From NCBI RefSeq assembly GCF_900103875.1, contig NZ_LT629705.1, positions 124,001 through 188,000 of the forward strand: a stretch of 64,000 nucleotides of DNA, given 5' to 3'. Below, in pieces: positions 7,131 to 56,174 of the stretch. The position numbers were made by a program, and so were the translations under genes. The stretch comes from Pseudomonas arsenicoxydans (lineage in GTDB: Bacteria; Pseudomonadota; Gammaproteobacteria; Pseudomonadales; Pseudomonadaceae). Position 1 is the first letter of the stretch. Every line of letters starts with the position of its first letter. Below the pieces are notes generated by a model. The model ran no database searches. It saw only the letters and a program-made list of their open reading frames with translations, and was not told the DNA's origin.

Positions 7131-9236
7131 TTAAACGCCCGATGCCTTGGCTGCTGCTACGTCTTTGATGGACAGCTTGATACGGCCGCGGTTGTCCACG
7201 TCCAGTACCAGTACTTCCACTTCCTGGCCTTCTTTCAGGATGTCGGTCACTTTCTCTACGCGAGCATCGCTCAGCATCGAGATGTGAACCAGACCGTCCT
7301 TGCCTGGCAGGATGTTGACGAATGCGCCGAAGTCGACGATGCGCTCAACCTTACCAACGTAGATCTTGCCGATTTCAGCTTCTGCGGTGATGCCCAGAAC
7401 GCGCTGACGTGCAGCTTCAGCAGCTTCCTTGGTTTCGCCGAAGATCTTGATCGAGCCGTCGTCTTCGATGTCGATCGAAGCCTTGGTCTCTTCACAGATC
7501 GCACGAATGGTCGCGCCGCCTTTACCGATAACATCACGGATTTTGTCGGTGTCGATTTTCATCGCGATCATGGTCGGAGCGTTTTCCGACAGTTCGGTAC
7601 GCGACTGGCCAATGATCTGGTTCATCTGACCGAGGATGTTCAGGCGCGCTTCCAGGGCTTGGCCCAGAGCGATTTCCATGATTTCTTCGGTGATGCCTTT
7701 GATCTTGATGTCCATCTGCAGCGCGGTCACACCTTTGGCGGTACCGGCTACTTTGAAGTCCATGTCGCCCAAGTGGTCTTCGTCACCCAGGATGTCGGTC
7801 AGGATGGCAAATTTCTCGCCTTCTTTAACCAGACCCATGGCGATACCGGCAACCGGCGCCTTCATCGGAACGCCGGCATCCATCAGGGCCAGGGAGGCGC
7901 CGCAGACCGAAGCCATGGAGCTCGAACCGTTGGATTCGGTGATTTCCGACACAACACGGATGGTGTACGGGAACACGTCGGCAGCAGGCAGCATGGCTGC
8001 AATCGAACGACGGGCCAGACGGCCGTGACCGATTTCGCGACGACCAGCGCCACCCATGCGACCACACTCACCTACCGAGAACGGAGGGAAGTTGTAGTGC
8101 AGCATGAACGGGTCTTTTTTCTCGCCTTCCAGGGTGTCCAGCAGTTGTGCATCACGGGCGGTGCCCAGTGTTGCAACAACCAGAGCCTGGGTTTCGCCAC
8201 GGGTGAACAGAGCCGAACCGTGGGTCTTTGGCAGAACACCGACTTCGATGTTCAGAGGACGTACGGTCTTGGTGTCGCGGCCGTCGATACGTGGCTTGCC
8301 GTTTACGATGTTTTCGCGAACGGTGCGGTATTCGATTTCGCCGAAAGCCGCTTTGACTTCGCTGGAAGAAGGCTGGCCTTCTTCACCGGACAGCTTGGCA
8401 ACAACCTGGTCTTTCAGCTCACCCAGGCGAGCGTAACGGTCGGCCTTGATGGTGATGGTGTAAGCCTGGGAAATCGCGTCGCCGAACTCGGCACGGATGG
8501 CGCCCAGCAGAGCGGTGGCTTCTGGCTGTGGAGTCCAGGTCCAGGTTGGCTTGGCCGCTTCGGCAGCCAGTTCTTTAACGGCGTTGATCACAACCTGGAA
8601 CTCGTCGTGAGCAAACAGTACCGCGCCCAGCATCTGGTCTTCGGTCAGCTCTTTGGCTTCCGATTCAACCATCAACACGGCTTCCGAAGTACCGGCAACG
8701 ACCATGTCCAGGCTCGAAGCTTTCTGTTGTTCGTAAGTCGGGTTCAGCAGGTAGCCGGTGCTTTCGTGGAACGCAACGCGTGCACAGCCGATAGGGCCAT
8801 CGAAAGGAATGCCGGAGATGGCCAGGGCCGCCGAGGTACCGATCATCGCAGCGATGTCCGGATCGGTTTTCTTGCTGGTGGAAACGACGGTGCAGACAAC
8901 CTGCACTTCGTTCATGAAGCCTTCTGGGAACAGCGGACGGATCGGACGGTCGATCAGTCGGGAAGTCAGGGTTTCTTTCTCGGAAGGACGGCCTTCGCGC
9001 TTGAAGAAACCGCCAGGGATCTTACCGGCAGCGTAAGTCTTTTCCTGGTAGTGAACGGACAGAGGGAAGAAGCCCTTGCCTGGATCGGCTTGTTTGGCGC
9101 CGACCACAGTCACCAATACGCTGACGTCGTCGTCAACGGTGACCAATACTGCGCCGGAGGCCTGACGGGCGATGCGGCCAGTCTCGAGGGTAACGGTCGA
9201 CTGACCGAACTGGAATTTTTTGATTACCGGGTTCAC
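7131..9236 (-). CDS. pnp: Pnp, polynucleotide phosphorylase
   Basis: A 3'-to-5' phosphorolytic exoribonuclease, trimeric and part of the RNA degradosome. At 701 residues it has the family length. Two RNase PH domains (about 1-230 and 310-540) flank an all-helical linker. Conserved [13 protein letters not shown] and the phosphate site around [18 protein letters not shown] lie in the second. A KH domain ([15 protein letters not shown]) and an S1 domain ([20 protein letters not shown]) follow. rpsO lies 195 bases upstream in the same direction, and the two are normally cotranscribed with RNase III processing between them. Confidence 0.98.
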
Positions 9237-49004: not shown

Positions 49005-49402
49005 GGGGCCGTTTAGGATTCGACGCCGGTTGCGAAACTTTAGGTGCATGCCGAGTTGGTAACAGAACTCGTAAATCCACTGTTGCAACTACTTATAGTT
49101 GCCAATGACGAAACCTACGGCCAGGAATTCTCTCTCGCTGCGTAAGCAGCTTTAGATCCTGAGCTTCTGGTACCTTCGGGTCCAGCAATCACCAGGGGAT
49201 GTCTGTAAACCCAAAGTGATTGTCATATAGAACAGAATCGCCGTGCAGTACGTTGTGGACGAAGCGGCTAAAACTTACACAACTCGCCCAAAGCACCCTG
49301 CCCTTCGGGTCGCTGAGGGTTAACTTAATAGAAACGGCTACGCATGTAGTACCGACAGCGGAGTACTGGCGGACGGGGGTTCAAATCCCCCCGGCTCCAC
49401 CA
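49005..49402 (+). ncRNA. ssrA: tmRNA (ssrA)
   Basis: A 398-base transfer-messenger RNA. The tRNA-like ends are GGGGCCGTTTAGGATTCGACG and CGGCTCC-ACCA, with T-arm GGGGGTTCAAATCCCCC. The tag frame runs 49101-49145 (GCC...TAA) and encodes ANDETYGQEFSLAA, preceded by the alanine charged on tmRNA. The upstream resume signal TTATAGTT is present. It works with SmpB (38681) to free stalled ribosomes. Its 3' end is the insertion point of the downstream island. Confidence 0.98.
49372..49402 (+). other. probable attL of the island (3' end of ssrA)
   Basis: The T-arm and acceptor end of tmRNA are immediately followed by an integrase gene in the same direction, the usual arrangement for elements that insert in ssrA. 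A repeat of part of this sequence (attR) is expected beyond the right window edge. I found no second copy inside the window. Confidence 0.65.
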
Positions 49403-49413
49403 AATACACATCT

Positions 49414-49586: not shown

Positions 49587-50843
49587 ATGGGGGCCCAAGC
49601 CACGCGCCTTTCAGACGTAAAAGTCAAAGCCGCGAAGCCAAAAGAAAAGGACTACATACTCACCGATGGCAACGGCCTTCAGATGCGAGTGAGAATCAAT
49701 GGGTCAAAGCTATGGAATTTCAACTACATCCAACCCGTGACGAAAAAGCGGATAAACATGGGATTGGGCACCTTTCCTGAAGTAAGCCTGGCTCAAGCAC
49801 GCAAGAGAACTGTGGAAGCGAGAGAGCTCGTCGCCCAGGGGCTGGACCCTAAAGAGAAACGCGACGCCGAGCGGCACGCGAAAAAAGCAGCCACGGAACA
49901 CACTTTCGGAAATATCTCGGCAGCGTGGTTCGAACTCAAAAAGGATTCAGTCACCCCAGCGTACGCCGAGGATATTTGGCGCTCTCTCACGCTGCATGTC
50001 TTCCCTGATCTGGCGACCACCCCAATCTCTGCTATCACTGCCCCTAAAGTCATAAGTTTGCTTCGCCCCCTCGAGACGAAGGGCAGCCTCGAAACCGTTA
50101 AACGCCTAACCCAACGCCTCAATGAGATCATGACCTATGGGGTCAATTCGGGATTGCTTCACGCGAATCCACTCAGTGGAATCCGCTCCGTCTTCAAAAA
50201 GCCCAAAAAGAAAAACATGGCGGCCCTTGCGCCCGATGAGCTGAAAGAGCTCATGGTGGCAATTGCCAATGCCAGCATAAAAAGAACCACGCGCTGCCTA
50301 ATTGAGTGGCAACTTCACACCATGACTCGGCCAGCCGAGGCTGCCACTTCCCGCTGGGCTGATATCGACTTCGAAAAGAAAATCTGGACTATACCGGCGG
50401 AGCGCATGAAGAAACGTCGGATACACATCATTCCGCTTACGCAACAAGCTTTGGCGCTCTTGGAAGCAGTCAAGCCCTACAGTGGACCTCGAGAGTACGT
50501 TTTCCCCGCCGACCGGGAACCTCGCACACACTGCAATAGCCAAACCGCCAACATGGCACTGAAGCGTATGGGGTTCGAGGGGCGTCTAGTAAGTCACGGC
50601 ATGCGCTCAATGGCGAGTACCATCCTTAATGAGCACGGTTGGGATCCTGAGTTAATCGAGGTTGCGCTAGCCCACGTCGATAAAGATGAGGTACGCAGCG
50701 CCTACAACCGAGCAGACTACATCGAGCGCAGACGCCCAATGATGAATTGGTGGAGCGAACACATTCAAGAAGCCGCCACTGGCAGCCTTTCCATCTCGGC
50801 GGTTCAAGCAAGCCGAGCCTTGAAAGTCGTATCGATACGCTAG
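49587..50843 (+). CDS. P4-type tyrosine integrase of the ssrA island
   Basis: A 418-residue site-specific recombinase, with an N-terminal DUF4102 arm-binding domain (LSDVKVKAAKPKEKDYILTD, INMGLGTFPEVSLAQAR), a central core-binding domain (about 105-200) and a C-terminal catalytic domain. The active-site residues visible are R248 (TMTRPAEAA), H337 and R340 (SHGMRSMAS), H363 (ALAHVD) and the nucleophile Y373 (SAYNRADY). All are intact, so it is probably active. It lies about 185 bases after ssrA, as expected for an element integrated there. Confidence 0.95.
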   Translation: MGAQATRLSDVKVKAAKPKEKDYILTDGNGLQMRVRINGSKLWNFNYIQPVTKKRINMGLGTFPEVSLAQARKRTVEARELVAQGLDPKEKRDAERHAKKAATEHTFGNISAAWFELKKDSVTPAYAEDIWRSLTLHVFPDLATTPISAITAPKVISLLRPLETKGSLETVKRLTQRLNEIMTYGVNSGLLHANPLSGIRSVFKKPKKKNMAALAPDELKELMVAIANASIKRTTRCLIEWQLHTMTRPAEAATSRWADIDFEKKIWTIPAERMKKRRIHIIPLTQQALALLEAVKPYSGPREYVFPADREPRTHCNSQTANMALKRMGFEGRLVSHGMRSMASTILNEHGWDPELIEVALAHVDKDEVRSAYNRADYIERRRPMMNWWSEHIQEAATGSLSISAVQASRALKVVSIR

Positions 50844-51165: not shown

Positions 51166-54100
51166 TTATGAAAGACGGTGGCGCTGGTAGGCCGATCCCA
51201 AGATAGTGGCGGACTCCACTTGAAGCTCGAAGTAGTAATGCTCAGAACCGTCAAACCAACCTTCTAATTTGGGAGATCTAGCGACTACATATCCAGCCGG
51301 ATCGATCCAGATGACTGCGCCGTCGGAAAGTAACGGTGAGACTGCTACGTGCTTAACTACGAACTTGTTAGCTAAACATTCAAGCTCAACGGGAATTTTG
51401 ACGTCAACCCTTGTAGGAGCAGTTTCCTTTGTACCGCTACGACGTTTCAACCAATCCCGAATCTTCCGTGGGTCTAGAAGGTCGTTACCATCCGCAATTA
51501 ATGACGCCTCTTTATAGTAAAGCTTAGCGTCAGTTTCCGCTTCTTGGCGGTTCAAGGCGTTCCCCCGCGCCAATAAAAAGGCTGCGACCGGGTCCAGAGT
51601 GCCCCAACTCAACAACTCTTTTAACCAAAAAGCGATCCATGGGAGGCCACTGTTTGGCCAGTCATCGATCTCGAGTGCGCGTACGGGTTTTCCGTCAACT
51701 GTATCCTCCATCAGGACGCTGATTAACCCTCCCAACCCCCAGTTACTGCGATAGATGAAGTTGTTGTTTGTAAATTTGAACCACTTCGTGATGCTGTCCG
51801 GAGGTGGTAGTTGCTTGCGTAGAAGCGTTCCAGGTGTGAGCCACCATTGAAGGACAACTCGCCAACCTACCCCCTTTTTCAATTGAGGTTCAATCTCGAA
51901 TGCCGGCACTGCAGATAACGACTCAAGAACTTCCGCGATAAAGTCGAACTGGTCCTTTTGGCTGCGTTGAGCGTAATCGGCGCCTGACTGCAGAAACTCC
52001 CGGAGCCTATCCGAAATCTTCAGCAGCACTGTCGCCGAACGCGGGGGGAGACTGGTCTTATATATCCTTCGACGTTGCACAGCGTCTGGATAAAGATTGC
52101 CGATGGCGAGCCCTCGTGTCAGCCAGCGCTGCTTGAGAATATACTCATTGGCTGAAGCCGCTGCTGCGTACGAGTACCCCCAAATACGGGCTAGCTCGCC
52201 TTCAATCTCCGCAGGTTCTAGCTCCGCCGCTTTCAACTGTGCGGCTTCTTCTAGTGCAGAGATCAAGATGGCATCTAGAGGATCGAGAAGTTCAAGAAGC
52301 TCCTCAGGGGTGTCCTCATCTTCATTTTCGATCAGCGCCGTACGGGCAAGCCACCCATCGAAGGTTCCGTCTCCGTCAAGCCGGGACCATATATCGTGCA
52401 GGACATCTAAAAGGTTTTGAAGCGGACTGTTGGCACTCACCTCTTCAGCATTGGCGCCAGTGACGGCCTTGCTCGAGTCGAGCATTTCGCCAATCAGCTC
52501 GTCATAGGCACGTTTCTGGCGGCTCCACGACTCTGCGTCCGGAAGTATCATTAATGCAGCCCCCTCGGTGGAGACGCCTGGTCGACCGGCACGTCCAATC
52601 AGGTTCATGAACTCCTGAAGTGACATGCGTTGAGTACCTCGATAAAGGCTCGGGATCAAAACAGTGTTCACTGGAATATTGACGCCTTCGGACAGCGTCG
52701 ACGTGGCGATGATGACCCGGACGAGACCTCGGTCAATTACCGTCTTGAGCCTACGCGCCAACAGCGGTGGAAGCTGTCCGTGATGGACCGCGATTCCGTA
52801 TTGAAGTAGCCGATACTCGACCGACTGCTCGGTAAAGTAGTCAGCCGCGCTGGCAAGGCACCTAGTCCAAGCCTCATCCGCCTCATCAATTGCGCAGTAC
52901 ACGGGCAGTTCCACGTCTCTCCACTCGTCCATGAGATCAGCGCAGGTCTTGGCGAACCCACTAATTTGCTGAGTGATGGAAATAAGCACCGCAGGGCGTA
53001 GTCCGTCGGGACGCTCTCTAGCTAGGTTGAGCGCTGCCCAAAGTGTCGGCCCCCTCATACGTAAATCAGGACCGCCTGCTAGCTTACTCCCGGGAACGGG
53101 GCTGAATGGTGCTGGAACGTACGGAGTCTCCTCATTGGCCCCATCATCAAAAAGCAGGCTTTGTCCGTCGATTAGATCGTAGTGTATGGAGAATGCAGCT
53201 CGCGTCGAGACTTCGAGCTTGCCAACCATCTGCCTTGTGCTTCGATGGCTAGACTTGACAGGAAGAGCGTCCGGGCCACCACCAAGCCACTTCGCTATCG
53301 CAGGACCGGCATGCGCCGCAACCGCCGATAGCGCAATAATCCTGAAGCCGTGAGTGTCTTGTGCCCGGAGTAAACGCATTCCCAACTGTTCTAGGCGAAG
53401 GGCTCGAGAATTGCCGCCAGCGAGCTCAGCGGCTCTTGTCGGGTCGAGTTCTACCATGTGCGCCTCGTCGATCACAACTAGCCGAACACGATCCAAGAAG
53501 AGAATGCCTAGGTAGCGAATTAGGGCGTCAGCCTTCTCGAAGGTACAAATTACTACAGCCGGGTCATCGGACTGTGTCCACGCATCAGTCGGCCCCCAGT
53601 CCACACCACCGTACAAACCAGTGACAACCACCGGTTTCGCATCTACGCCTTTGAGATCTTCCGATAACCGTTGCTCGACTTCGGCTGCTAAAGCGCGAGA
53701 TGGGACTATATACAGCATCAGATTGCCTGGACCGATACCCGTGACCGAGGGCAGATCGTCCCGTTCTGTAAAAAGGCTTTGGACAATGCCAAGCGTGGCA
53801 ATCGTAGTCTTGCCCGAGCCTGTAGGCGTACAGAGAACGAAAGACCCTTGCTCATTAAGTCGTTTAATACCCTTCGCCTGAGCGGGCCACACCAAGGCGC
53901 GCCTGTTCATAAAGGCTGCACGAGCGAACTGTACTAGCGCTTCACCGGCTCTCTCTGAAGTTCCAGTGCATAGATTTCTGACGTGAGGCCAGAGGCAGTT
54001 CTGCACGAATTTCCGAGCAGTGGCCGCGACTAGGCGCGCCAATAAAAAAGAGTAAGGGTCACGACTATGCAGAAATACGTGAGCGAGGCGCTCTAACTTC

Positions 54101-54729
54101 ACTAGAGCGCGCTCAATGGATAGGGAATCACCTGTTCGCAGGTACGCGCAGACTGTGCCAATGCATTTCACGAAATGCTGCTCGGAAAGCCTGCTTAGCT
54201 CAAGATCGGCATCCTCATTCAAACTATCAGGCGATGGCGGATTAGCTACATGCTCGTTTTGCCAATAACGACCAACCGAATTCAGAGCACCTGGGAAGTC
54301 ACCACGGAGGAAATCTCGCAGAATTTCGGAACCTTGCTCGCCGGGGGGCATTCTGCGCAGATGCCCAAGTGCCATCGCTGGTAGATCGGCCACTTGATAT
54401 ATTGCCGCGGCGATCAAGTGAAGGGGTGATCCTGGCGGTCTAATGCCCTCTTGTGAAAGCCACTCGACAATCTGAGCCGCTCGCTGCAGTGAAGCACGCC
54501 AGCTTGAGTTAGGAGCCTCTTCACGCTCAATGAGGCCACACTCAACTAGCAGCATCGCTTGATCAAGAAGTGAGTACACGTCAGCCTGCGAGAAGCTCGT
54601 CAAGCCCGGTCGAGACATATCAAGCCGCAACTGTTGACTGTAGAGCTTGGCATGTATCCCCAAAAGTGCCGCACCTGCCTTTTCCGACCGGACACGTTGG
54701 ACAATGCTAAGAATTACCTCGTCGGTCAT
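51166..54729 (-). CDS. Ski2-like superfamily 2 helicase, HamB-like defence subunit
   Basis: An 1187-residue protein (ATG at 54729; GTG one codon earlier is possible). Numbered from that GTG, a helical N-terminal region of about 280 residues precedes two helicase lobes: Walker A TPTGSGKTT (302-310), DEAH box VVIDEAH (419-425), motif III ALSA (467-470), HHGQLP (650-655), TSTLSEGVNIP (677-687) and motif VI LIGRAGRPG (711-719). HH-x-x-LP, SEGVN-x-P and GRAGR are typical of Ski2/Hel308-like enzymes. The last 450 residues are of unknown fold. Its start shares one base with the upstream nuclease stop, so the two act together, as in Hachiman (HamAB) or AbpAB. Function in defence is inference. Confidence 0.75.
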   Translation of the reverse strand: MTDEVILSIVQRVRSEKAGAALLGIHAKLYSQQLRLDMSRPGLTSFSQADVYSLLDQAMLLVECGLIEREEAPNSSWRASLQRAAQIVEWLSQEGIRPPGSPLHLIAAAIYQVADLPAMALGHLRRMPPGEQGSEILRDFLRGDFPGALNSVGRYWQNEHVANPPSPDSLNEDADLELSRLSEQHFVKCIGTVCAYLRTGDSLSIERALVKLERLAHVFLHSRDPYSFLLARLVAATARKFVQNCLWPHVRNLCTGTSERAGEALVQFARAAFMNRRALVWPAQAKGIKRLNEQGSFVLCTPTGSGKTTIATLGIVQSLFTERDDLPSVTGIGPGNLMLYIVPSRALAAEVEQRLSEDLKGVDAKPVVVTGLYGGVDWGPTDAWTQSDDPAVVICTFEKADALIRYLGILFLDRVRLVVIDEAHMVELDPTRAAELAGGNSRALRLEQLGMRLLRAQDTHGFRIIALSAVAAHAGPAIAKWLGGGPDALPVKSSHRSTRQMVGKLEVSTRAAFSIHYDLIDGQSLLFDDGANEETPYVPAPFSPVPGSKLAGGPDLRMRGPTLWAALNLARERPDGLRPAVLISITQQISGFAKTCADLMDEWRDVELPVYCAIDEADEAWTRCLASAADYFTEQSVEYRLLQYGIAVHHGQLPPLLARRLKTVIDRGLVRVIIATSTLSEGVNIPVNTVLIPSLYRGTQRMSLQEFMNLIGRAGRPGVSTEGAALMILPDAESWSRQKRAYDELIGEMLDSSKAVTGANAEEVSANSPLQNLLDVLHDIWSRLDGDGTFDGWLARTALIENEDEDTPEELLELLDPLDAILISALEEAAQLKAAELEPAEIEGELARIWGYSYAAAASANEYILKQRWLTRGLAIGNLYPDAVQRRRIYKTSLPPRSATVLLKISDRLREFLQSGADYAQRSQKDQFDFIAEVLESLSAVPAFEIEPQLKKGVGWRVVLQWWLTPGTLLRKQLPPPDSITKWFKFTNNNFIYRSNWGLGGLISVLMEDTVDGKPVRALEIDDWPNSGLPWIAFWLKELLSWGTLDPVAAFLLARGNALNRQEAETDAKLYYKEASLIADGNDLLDPRKIRDWLKRRSGTKETAPTRVDVKIPVELECLANKFVVKHVAVSPLLSDGAVIWIDPAGYVVARSPKLEGWFDGSEHYYFELQVESATILGSAYQRHRLS

Positions 54730-55667
54730 CACTTGCCCCTAAAGATGCTGTCAACCACGCCAGCGAGATCGAGAAACTGGTATTCCAACCCAACCAGCGG
54801 ATACTTAAGCGTATAGCTGGAATGGCTTTTAAGCGGATCCATCCATGACTCTCGTGTCTTCGGCCTTTTGGGTTGCGCACCTACGCCGTACGAAACGCAA
54901 TCGTATCGAGACACGGTCATGTGCCCGCTGCGCCAGAGTTCAAGGAGTGCGGCCCGCCACTTTTGAGCTTCGCCTGTATCGTACTTGTCTAAAATATTGA
55001 TGAGCTCACGAAATCCACTGTTTTTAAGCAGCGGCGTCGAAAGCTTTTCATGAGCCTCGGCAATTGTCCCGTTGTTGTTGGCTCCTAGGCACTTTGCCTC
55101 GATAACAAGCACGTCGCTTATCACACCTTCATCATCCATGCGGAACGCGAGGGCATCGTCGCCTGTACGGCCTGGCCGCATCTCTGGGGTAGCATCCTGA
55201 TTGAACGGTACGCCTCTCGCGATGCGATCATTGATAGATGCAAGATGCTGGAGCTCAGCTGAGTGAAACCGGAAGAGCATTGCGGGAACCTGCCAGTCGT
55301 TGTGGCCGCCAGCTCCCCAATGCTCAACGGCAAGGGCTCCCAAAGCCTCACCAAGATATCCCTGCTGAGTGACACGGTGAAGGAGACCAGGAAAGTTGGC
55401 AGCAGGATCCACGGCTGGATCGGCAAATGAGCAGAGATCGTCCTCAAACCCTTCCCTGAGACACTTCCTCGCATCTTCAAAGGCTTCGTCAAAGTAGGCT
55501 AAGACCTCATCTTTGAATGGCGCCGCCAAGGCGCTGCGATCTTCTCGCCAAAGTCTGAGGCTGTATTGAGGATCGCCAACAGGCAACGGAACGCTTACGA
55601 GCCAATTGTTTAACGGGGTCAGCTGAAATCGCTTCTTACGTATCAAGTCCCTGAATTCCGGATGCAA
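54729..55667 (-). CDS. PD-(D/E)xK-like nuclease, HamA-like (DUF1837-type) defence subunit
   Basis: A 312-residue protein directly upstream of, and coupled to, the helicase. The pattern G-E107 (QGYLGEALGALAVEHW), D171 (RTGDDALAFRM) and E190-x-K192 (VLVIEAKCLG), followed by a helix (TIAEAHEKL), fits a PD-(D/E)xK nuclease core as in HamA/DUF1837 proteins. Overall similarity to DUF1837 is only partial to my eye. The only start in the open frame before MHPEFRD is a TTG without a ribosome site; a G9 run lies about 75 bases further upstream. Type II restriction-like nuclease is an alternative, but order and size favour hamA-hamB. Confidence 0.6.
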   Translation of the reverse strand: MHPEFRDLIRKKRFQLTPLNNWLVSVPLPVGDPQYSLRLWREDRSALAAPFKDEVLAYFDEAFEDARKCLREGFEDDLCSFADPAVDPAANFPGLLHRVTQQGYLGEALGALAVEHWGAGGHNDWQVPAMLFRFHSAELQHLASINDRIARGVPFNQDATPEMRPGRTGDDALAFRMDDEGVISDVLVIEAKCLGANNNGTIAEAHEKLSTPLLKNSGFRELINILDKYDTGEAQKWRAALLELWRSGHMTVSRYDCVSYGVGAQPKRPKTRESWMDPLKSHSSYTLKYPLVGLEYQFLDLAGVVDSIFRGK

Positions 55668-55749: not shown

Positions 55750-55844
55750 ACGTATTACGTATCAATATTCCGATGTAGTGAATGACTAAAAAAATTTCAG
55801 TCCTACATCACTGCCATGACATCTACCCCATGGAACTAAGAATC

Positions 55845-56174
55845 ATGTCATTGCAATGTCCTCTGTGTAACTCCCCCAAGGTCGCATCTTTACAAACGGC
55901 TATGAAGATTGGCGCAGCTGTTGGGACCGTCGGCGGAGCCGCTCGTGGCGCAAGCGCCGCACTGGCAGCAGGCCAGGTGGGCGCTGCTGTCGGCGCTATT
56001 GCCGGCCCGCTTGGCATCACCTTCGGCACAGTCTCTGGTGCCATCCTCGGCGGGCTCGCTGGAGGTGCAGGCGGCTGCACCCTCGGTGCTCAGCTCGGCG
56101 AAAAACTTGATCGCCATGTGTTCGCCAACAACCTCTGTCTCGCCTGCAATCATCGCTTCAACCTACCAGCCTAA
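55845..56174 (+). CDS. small glycine-zipper protein with paired CxxC motifs
   Basis: A 109-residue protein I do not recognise by name. From MSLQCPLCNSPKVASL it has an N-terminal CPLC and a C-terminal CLAC-NHRF pair. These could form one split zinc ribbon around a long alanine/glycine-rich hydrophobic stretch (GAAVGTVGG, GAAVGAIAGPLG, GAILGGLAGGAGG) of the glycine-zipper type. Membrane insertion is plausible. An ATG five codons earlier (MELRIMSLQ) is an alternative start. It heads the rightward DUF932-YqaJ-RadC cassette. Confidence 0.6.
   Translation: MSLQCPLCNSPKVASLQTAMKIGAAVGTVGGAARGASAALAAGQVGAAVGAIAGPLGITFGTVSGAILGGLAGGAGGCTLGAQLGEKLDRHVFANNLCLACNHRFNLPA

Follow-up and report, generated by a model that had tools for sequence, protein, structure and literature searches.

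A pair of minus-strand genes at positions 51166 to 55667 of the window, i.e., the whole 64,000-nucleotide stretch of Pseudomonas arsenicoxydans DNA analysed here (contig NZ_LT629705.1, positions 124,001 to 188,000, from a genome consisting of a single 6.50 Mb contig), encodes a nuclease similar to HamA and a Ski2-type helicase similar to HamB. It is very likely that this locus, located on an integrative island in the transfer-messenger RNA (tmRNA) gene ssrA, represents a divergent subfamily of the Hachiman anti-phage system. This assignment draws on the gene order and overlap, the active-site motifs, fold models matching HamA and HamB over their whole length, profile homology, the pairing of the two genes in relatives and one fusion. 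That the two proteins form a complex, sense DNA damage, become activated and kill the cell is attributed to the locus by analogy with the ECOR31 system HamAB (PDB 8VX9; PMC12278908). Overall, the locus is an ordinary, if divergent, Hachiman system and a new subfamily member.

The open reading frame (ORF) of the nuclease extends over positions 54729–55667 (312 amino acids, aa) if it is read from the upstream TTG at 55667. Since 30 of 35 aligned relatives have their initial methionine where the next TTG (55646) lies, the true gene is probably 54729–55646, encoding 305 aa. The preliminary description of this DNA had pointed to the residues G-E107, D171 and E190-x-K192, and the alignments bear it out: G106, E107, D171, E190 and K192 are invariant in all 36 rows of one nuclease alignment (A1) and all 92 rows of another (A6), while the neighbouring D170 is an aspartate in 62 of the 92. 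E107 (55347–55349) belongs to a G-x-L-G-E motif that aligns with the GE of HamA, D171 (55155–55157) belongs to the GRTGDD motif corresponding to the HamA GDD/GxDG, and E190-A-K192 (55092–55100) aligns with E138-x-K140 of ECOR31 HamA, where mutation of E138/K140 abolishes defence (PMC12278908). The D-ExK active site of the window nuclease is intact.

The nuclease is not recognised by simple searches. Single-sequence comparisons with Pfam, NCBIfam and PADLOC gave no match, the Pfam HamA family was not among the matches of 36 nuclease relatives, and a search of the PDB with the nuclease profile found no HamA, returning two unrelated chains at E 1.4. The profile–profile comparison with seven ECOR31-type HamAs, in contrast, gave a strong match, and all seven of these clear the cut-off of Pfam HamA (PF08878). 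In a structure comparison of the predicted nuclease model, HamA ranked first by a wide margin, far above other nucleases. The preliminary description would have been contradicted by the lack of any match to the PD-(D/E)xK/DUF1837 families; by the profile–profile match and the fold model, the nuclease belongs to HamA/DUF1837. An hhalign comparison of the 92-row nuclease profile with a set of HamAs drawn by PF08878 scored 24.2, a value that the best of 40 shuffles also reached, with the three motifs aligned in order. Judging from the PDB searches, sequence distance within HamA is large in general, because a canonical HamA (L014) used as a phmmer query found nothing there at E <= 0.01, and a second profile (A2) found an AbpA chain and an unrelated ryanodine-receptor chain (E 0.028) and likewise no ECOR31 HamA.

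The helicase gene occupies positions 51166–54729 and encodes 1187 aa from the ATG at 54729, or 1188 aa from an alternative GTG at 54732. The product matches PADLOC HamB profiles at 2.4e-66 and 4.5e-61 and the PDB HamB by sequence at 2.5e-28. As described earlier, the helicase motifs are intact: Walker A (TPTGSGKT, residues 301–308, 53806–53829), the DEAH box (residues 421–424, 53458–53469) and motif VI (GRAGR, residues 712–716, 52582–52596) have letters that are invariant in 40 of 40 helicase rows, barring A423 and A714, each conserved in at least 90%. Residues 1 to about 292 (53854–54729) form, by profile and model, an alpha-helical region, the counterpart of the N-terminal helical domain (NAH) on which HamA docks in HamB; residues 1–265 by themselves match the PADLOC HamB profile PDLC00192 at 6.3e-7. 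According to PMC12278908, NAH is absent from other Ski2 helicases. Two reservations of the preliminary description can be dropped. The helicase had been thought longer than HamB, but the solved ECOR31 HamB has 1174 aa; its ends had been thought to lack a recognised fold, but the predicted model superposes on HamB over residues 1 to 1184, and both ends have counterparts among the HamB domains. The hamA-hamB pair proposed in the preliminary description is supported, while an AbpAB-type system is very improbable, as discussed below.

At the junction of the two genes (54727–54732, AAGTGATGACC), the TGA of the nuclease (54729–54731) and the ATG of the helicase (54727–54729) share one base in a TGATG; from the GTG at 54732 the overlap would be four bases. 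The overlap of stop and start suggests translational coupling of nuclease and helicase. The same arrangement recurs in relatives. Protein searches at E <= 0.001 yielded 349 relatives of the nuclease and at least 793 of the helicase, for which the candidates were capped at 8000; individual entries were listed for 120 relatives of either protein. The nuclease gene comes first, with the helicase gene adjacent on the same strand, in all 12 clade loci compared, including the window and loci of Burkholderia sp. MS389, Azospirillum, Nitrobacter, Rhizobium, Leisingera and Bosea, and the spacing is −8 to +3 bases in ten of them, with starts taken from the longest ORF; one of the 12 is a fusion and one has a broken helicase gene, both described below. 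Two further loci outside this count, L079 and L080, are annotated with their genes in this order as well. The finding is beyond chance, because of these numbers of relatives and the adjacent pair in every one of the 12 loci.

In the plasmid NC_019727.1 of Calothrix sp. PCC 6303 (L007:5992-10695), nuclease and helicase form a single protein of 1567 aa, annotated merely as a DEAD/DEAH box helicase. This fusion gives indirect support to a putative nuclease–helicase complex. A HamA-HamB-like fusion from another branch was observed on a Nostoc plasmid (L059:2321-6550). Nuclease matches are present on ten plasmid records; eight were examined as DNA, and the other two show a helicase match alongside by coordinates. 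On a Sinorhizobium fredii plasmid, the helicase gene is broken into pieces (L062:5622-7426), and the adjoining nuclease gene keeps its motifs. The clade is rare in the genomes sampled: it was found in one of 144 related genomes, namely the window's own, and in one genome (G533) of 398 in the phylum, apart from the window and an ECOR31-type match. HamA of the PF08878 type occurs in 20 of 194 relatives and is not present in the window's genome.

Compared with ECOR31, the window locus has the same two genes, the HamA fold with a D-ExK site and the same HamB layout, comprising the N-terminal helical region, two RecA domains, a C-terminal helical region and, at the end, a part rich in strands. However, identity in structure alignments is only 14% for HamA and 20% for HamB, ECOR31 HamA has 259 aa against 305, and the Pfam HamA model misses the window clade. 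The loop 102–117, which in ECOR31 HamA contacts HamB, is about 25 residues longer in the window nuclease (P128–G169 before the GDD, against P100–G116 in the locus L060). Loci of Pseudomonas-like relatives with a PF08878 HamA and a short HamB share the gene order, the GE/D/ExK motifs and a Ski2-type helicase. They differ in the length of the partner helicase (833–911 aa in ten of 11, 733 aa in one) and in having GxDG/ESK instead of GDD/EAK, and the nuclease profiles of the two groups have no significant match.

A quick tree of HamB was built from 44 rows, with no outgroup or bootstrap, and its long branches mean that several joins may be false. It included 39 hidden Markov model matches minus L062 (one fragment) and L074 (548 aa), and covered six of the 120 listed window-clade helicases. 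In this tree, 16 rows of short HamB/AbpB separate from 28 rows of long HamB. Among the latter, the window clade, a Rhizobium group and Calothrix form one group of 17 rows with a Shimodaira–Hasegawa-like approximate likelihood ratio (SH-aLRT) of 100, and eight ECOR31-type or ECOR31-like rows stand apart (SH-aLRT 94). This topology supports a putative separate HamB subgroup for the window clade, in line with the distinct subtype considered in the preliminary description. A bolder proposal, which we regard as tentative, is a distinct Hachiman subtype in which a separate HamB clade and an enlarged docking loop of HamA evolved together, altering how the complex is held off and triggered, and which also exists as a single-chain fusion. 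Its HamA is missed by the Pfam, NCBIfam and PADLOC models tested, which would explain why such a subtype had gone unnoticed. The clade was not found described in the literature surveyed on Hachiman, HamA/HamB and AbpAB, a survey whose scope did not extend to supplements and subscription journals, and published HamB trees may include it.

By analogy with ECOR31, HamB would most likely patrol double-stranded DNA while keeping HamA, bound to the N-terminal helical domain of HamB, inactive. When phage replication, recombination or breakdown of the host genome leaves a free 3′ end of single-stranded DNA, this end would enter HamB and trigger ATP hydrolysis, thereby activating the D-ExK site of HamA. 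The activated nuclease would cut phage and host DNA, and the infection would be stopped by abortive infection. The longer loop at the presumed HamA–HamB contact could alter this gating.

The same loop lends some weight to a Hachiman-like complex tuned to other invaders, for example plasmids or rival islands, or to a trigger unlike that of ECOR31, since the interface and gating may differ; clade members found on plasmids, several of them conjugative, point in the same direction. The domain order and catalytic motifs are nevertheless unchanged, and we consider this reading improbable, if the best of the alternatives. Decidedly less probable is a DNA-repair or element-maintenance module serving the island, for example a Hel308-like helicase with a structure-specific nuclease. 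Hel308 and Pol theta helicases are indeed the next structural matches of the helicase, the island also encodes a YqaJ exonuclease and RadC, and some related loci sit amid metabolic genes. Nevertheless, the N-terminal region is unmatched by most Hel308 and Pol theta helicases, the structural match of the nuclease to HamA stands far above that to any other nuclease, the distribution among related genomes is patchy, and other related loci are neighboured by AbiH, AbiEii, VapC, Swt1-HEPN and toxin-antitoxin genes.

AbpAB of E. coli K-12 (PDB 8ZUE), a Hachiman variant, likewise combines a Ski2-type helicase with a C-terminal domain resembling HamA, but AbpA cuts with an extra N-terminal Cap4-like nuclease, and its HamA site is inactive (PMC12278908). 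An AbpAB-type system at this locus is very improbable: the window nuclease has one HamA-like domain of 305–312 aa, against 531 aa for the AbpA chain, with D171/E190/K192 kept in every row and no additional N-terminal domain, and the 1187-aa helicase groups away from four AbpB-like rows (714–740 aa). As to DISARM, no DrmA, DrmB or DrmC model was among the listed PADLOC matches of ten proteins around the locus (limited to the best 25 for two of the proteins), and no search was aimed at DISARM.

Recognising the locus as Hachiman brings into the system nucleases that are missed or weakly touched by the Pfam and PADLOC models tested, and the usefulness of the clade lies mainly in this failure of standard HamA models. 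A HamA profile built from the window clade should raise Hachiman counts in surveys. PMC12278908 lists the release of HamA, or its transfer to DNA, as an open question, for which the longer loop and the natural fusion allow comparisons. Several nucleases of the clade and its sister group are publicly annotated as "aminotransferase" or "hypothetical protein"; the former label, apparently a propagated misnaming, is carried by the sister-group HamA-like nucleases at L008:4917-5885, L012:4971-5921, L062:4471-5442, L080:2044-2997 and others.

The pair lies directly behind a tyrosine integrase gene (49587–50843, plus strand; PF00589 at 8e-30, NF007246 over its cut-off), which adjoins ssrA (49005–49402, plus strand). 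The island probably uses the 3′ end of ssrA as its attachment site: within the 124 kb examined, the sequence CCACCAAATAC at 49397–49407 has a single further copy, about 23.06 kb away (L036:8455-8465). Inside both ends there is a 22-base repeat with 95% identity, and G+C is about 0.50–0.58 between the end repeats against about 0.60 just outside, with a later stretch near 88–96 kb lower too. The integrative island of about 23 kb runs from window position 49397 through 64000 on to L036:8465, bounded by an 11-bp end repeat in the 3′ end of ssrA. The E. coli abpAB genes presumably also lie in an ssrA-integrated element, CP4-57.

The island carries a second defence system, a type I restriction-modification system (HsdR, HsdS and HsdM), and further genes for DUF932, YqaJ, Gp3-like, RadC and YagK/YfjJ-like proteins. 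An ORF of 130 aa (55782–56174) is divergent from the nuclease gene; it has no match in Pfam or NCBIfam and a weak one in PADLOC (JukA, E 0.33), and it could be a regulator or unrelated. The tag peptide encoded by the tmRNA gene is ANDETYGQEFSLAA, and an Rfam match to the Pseudomonas small RNA P31 also lies within the window.
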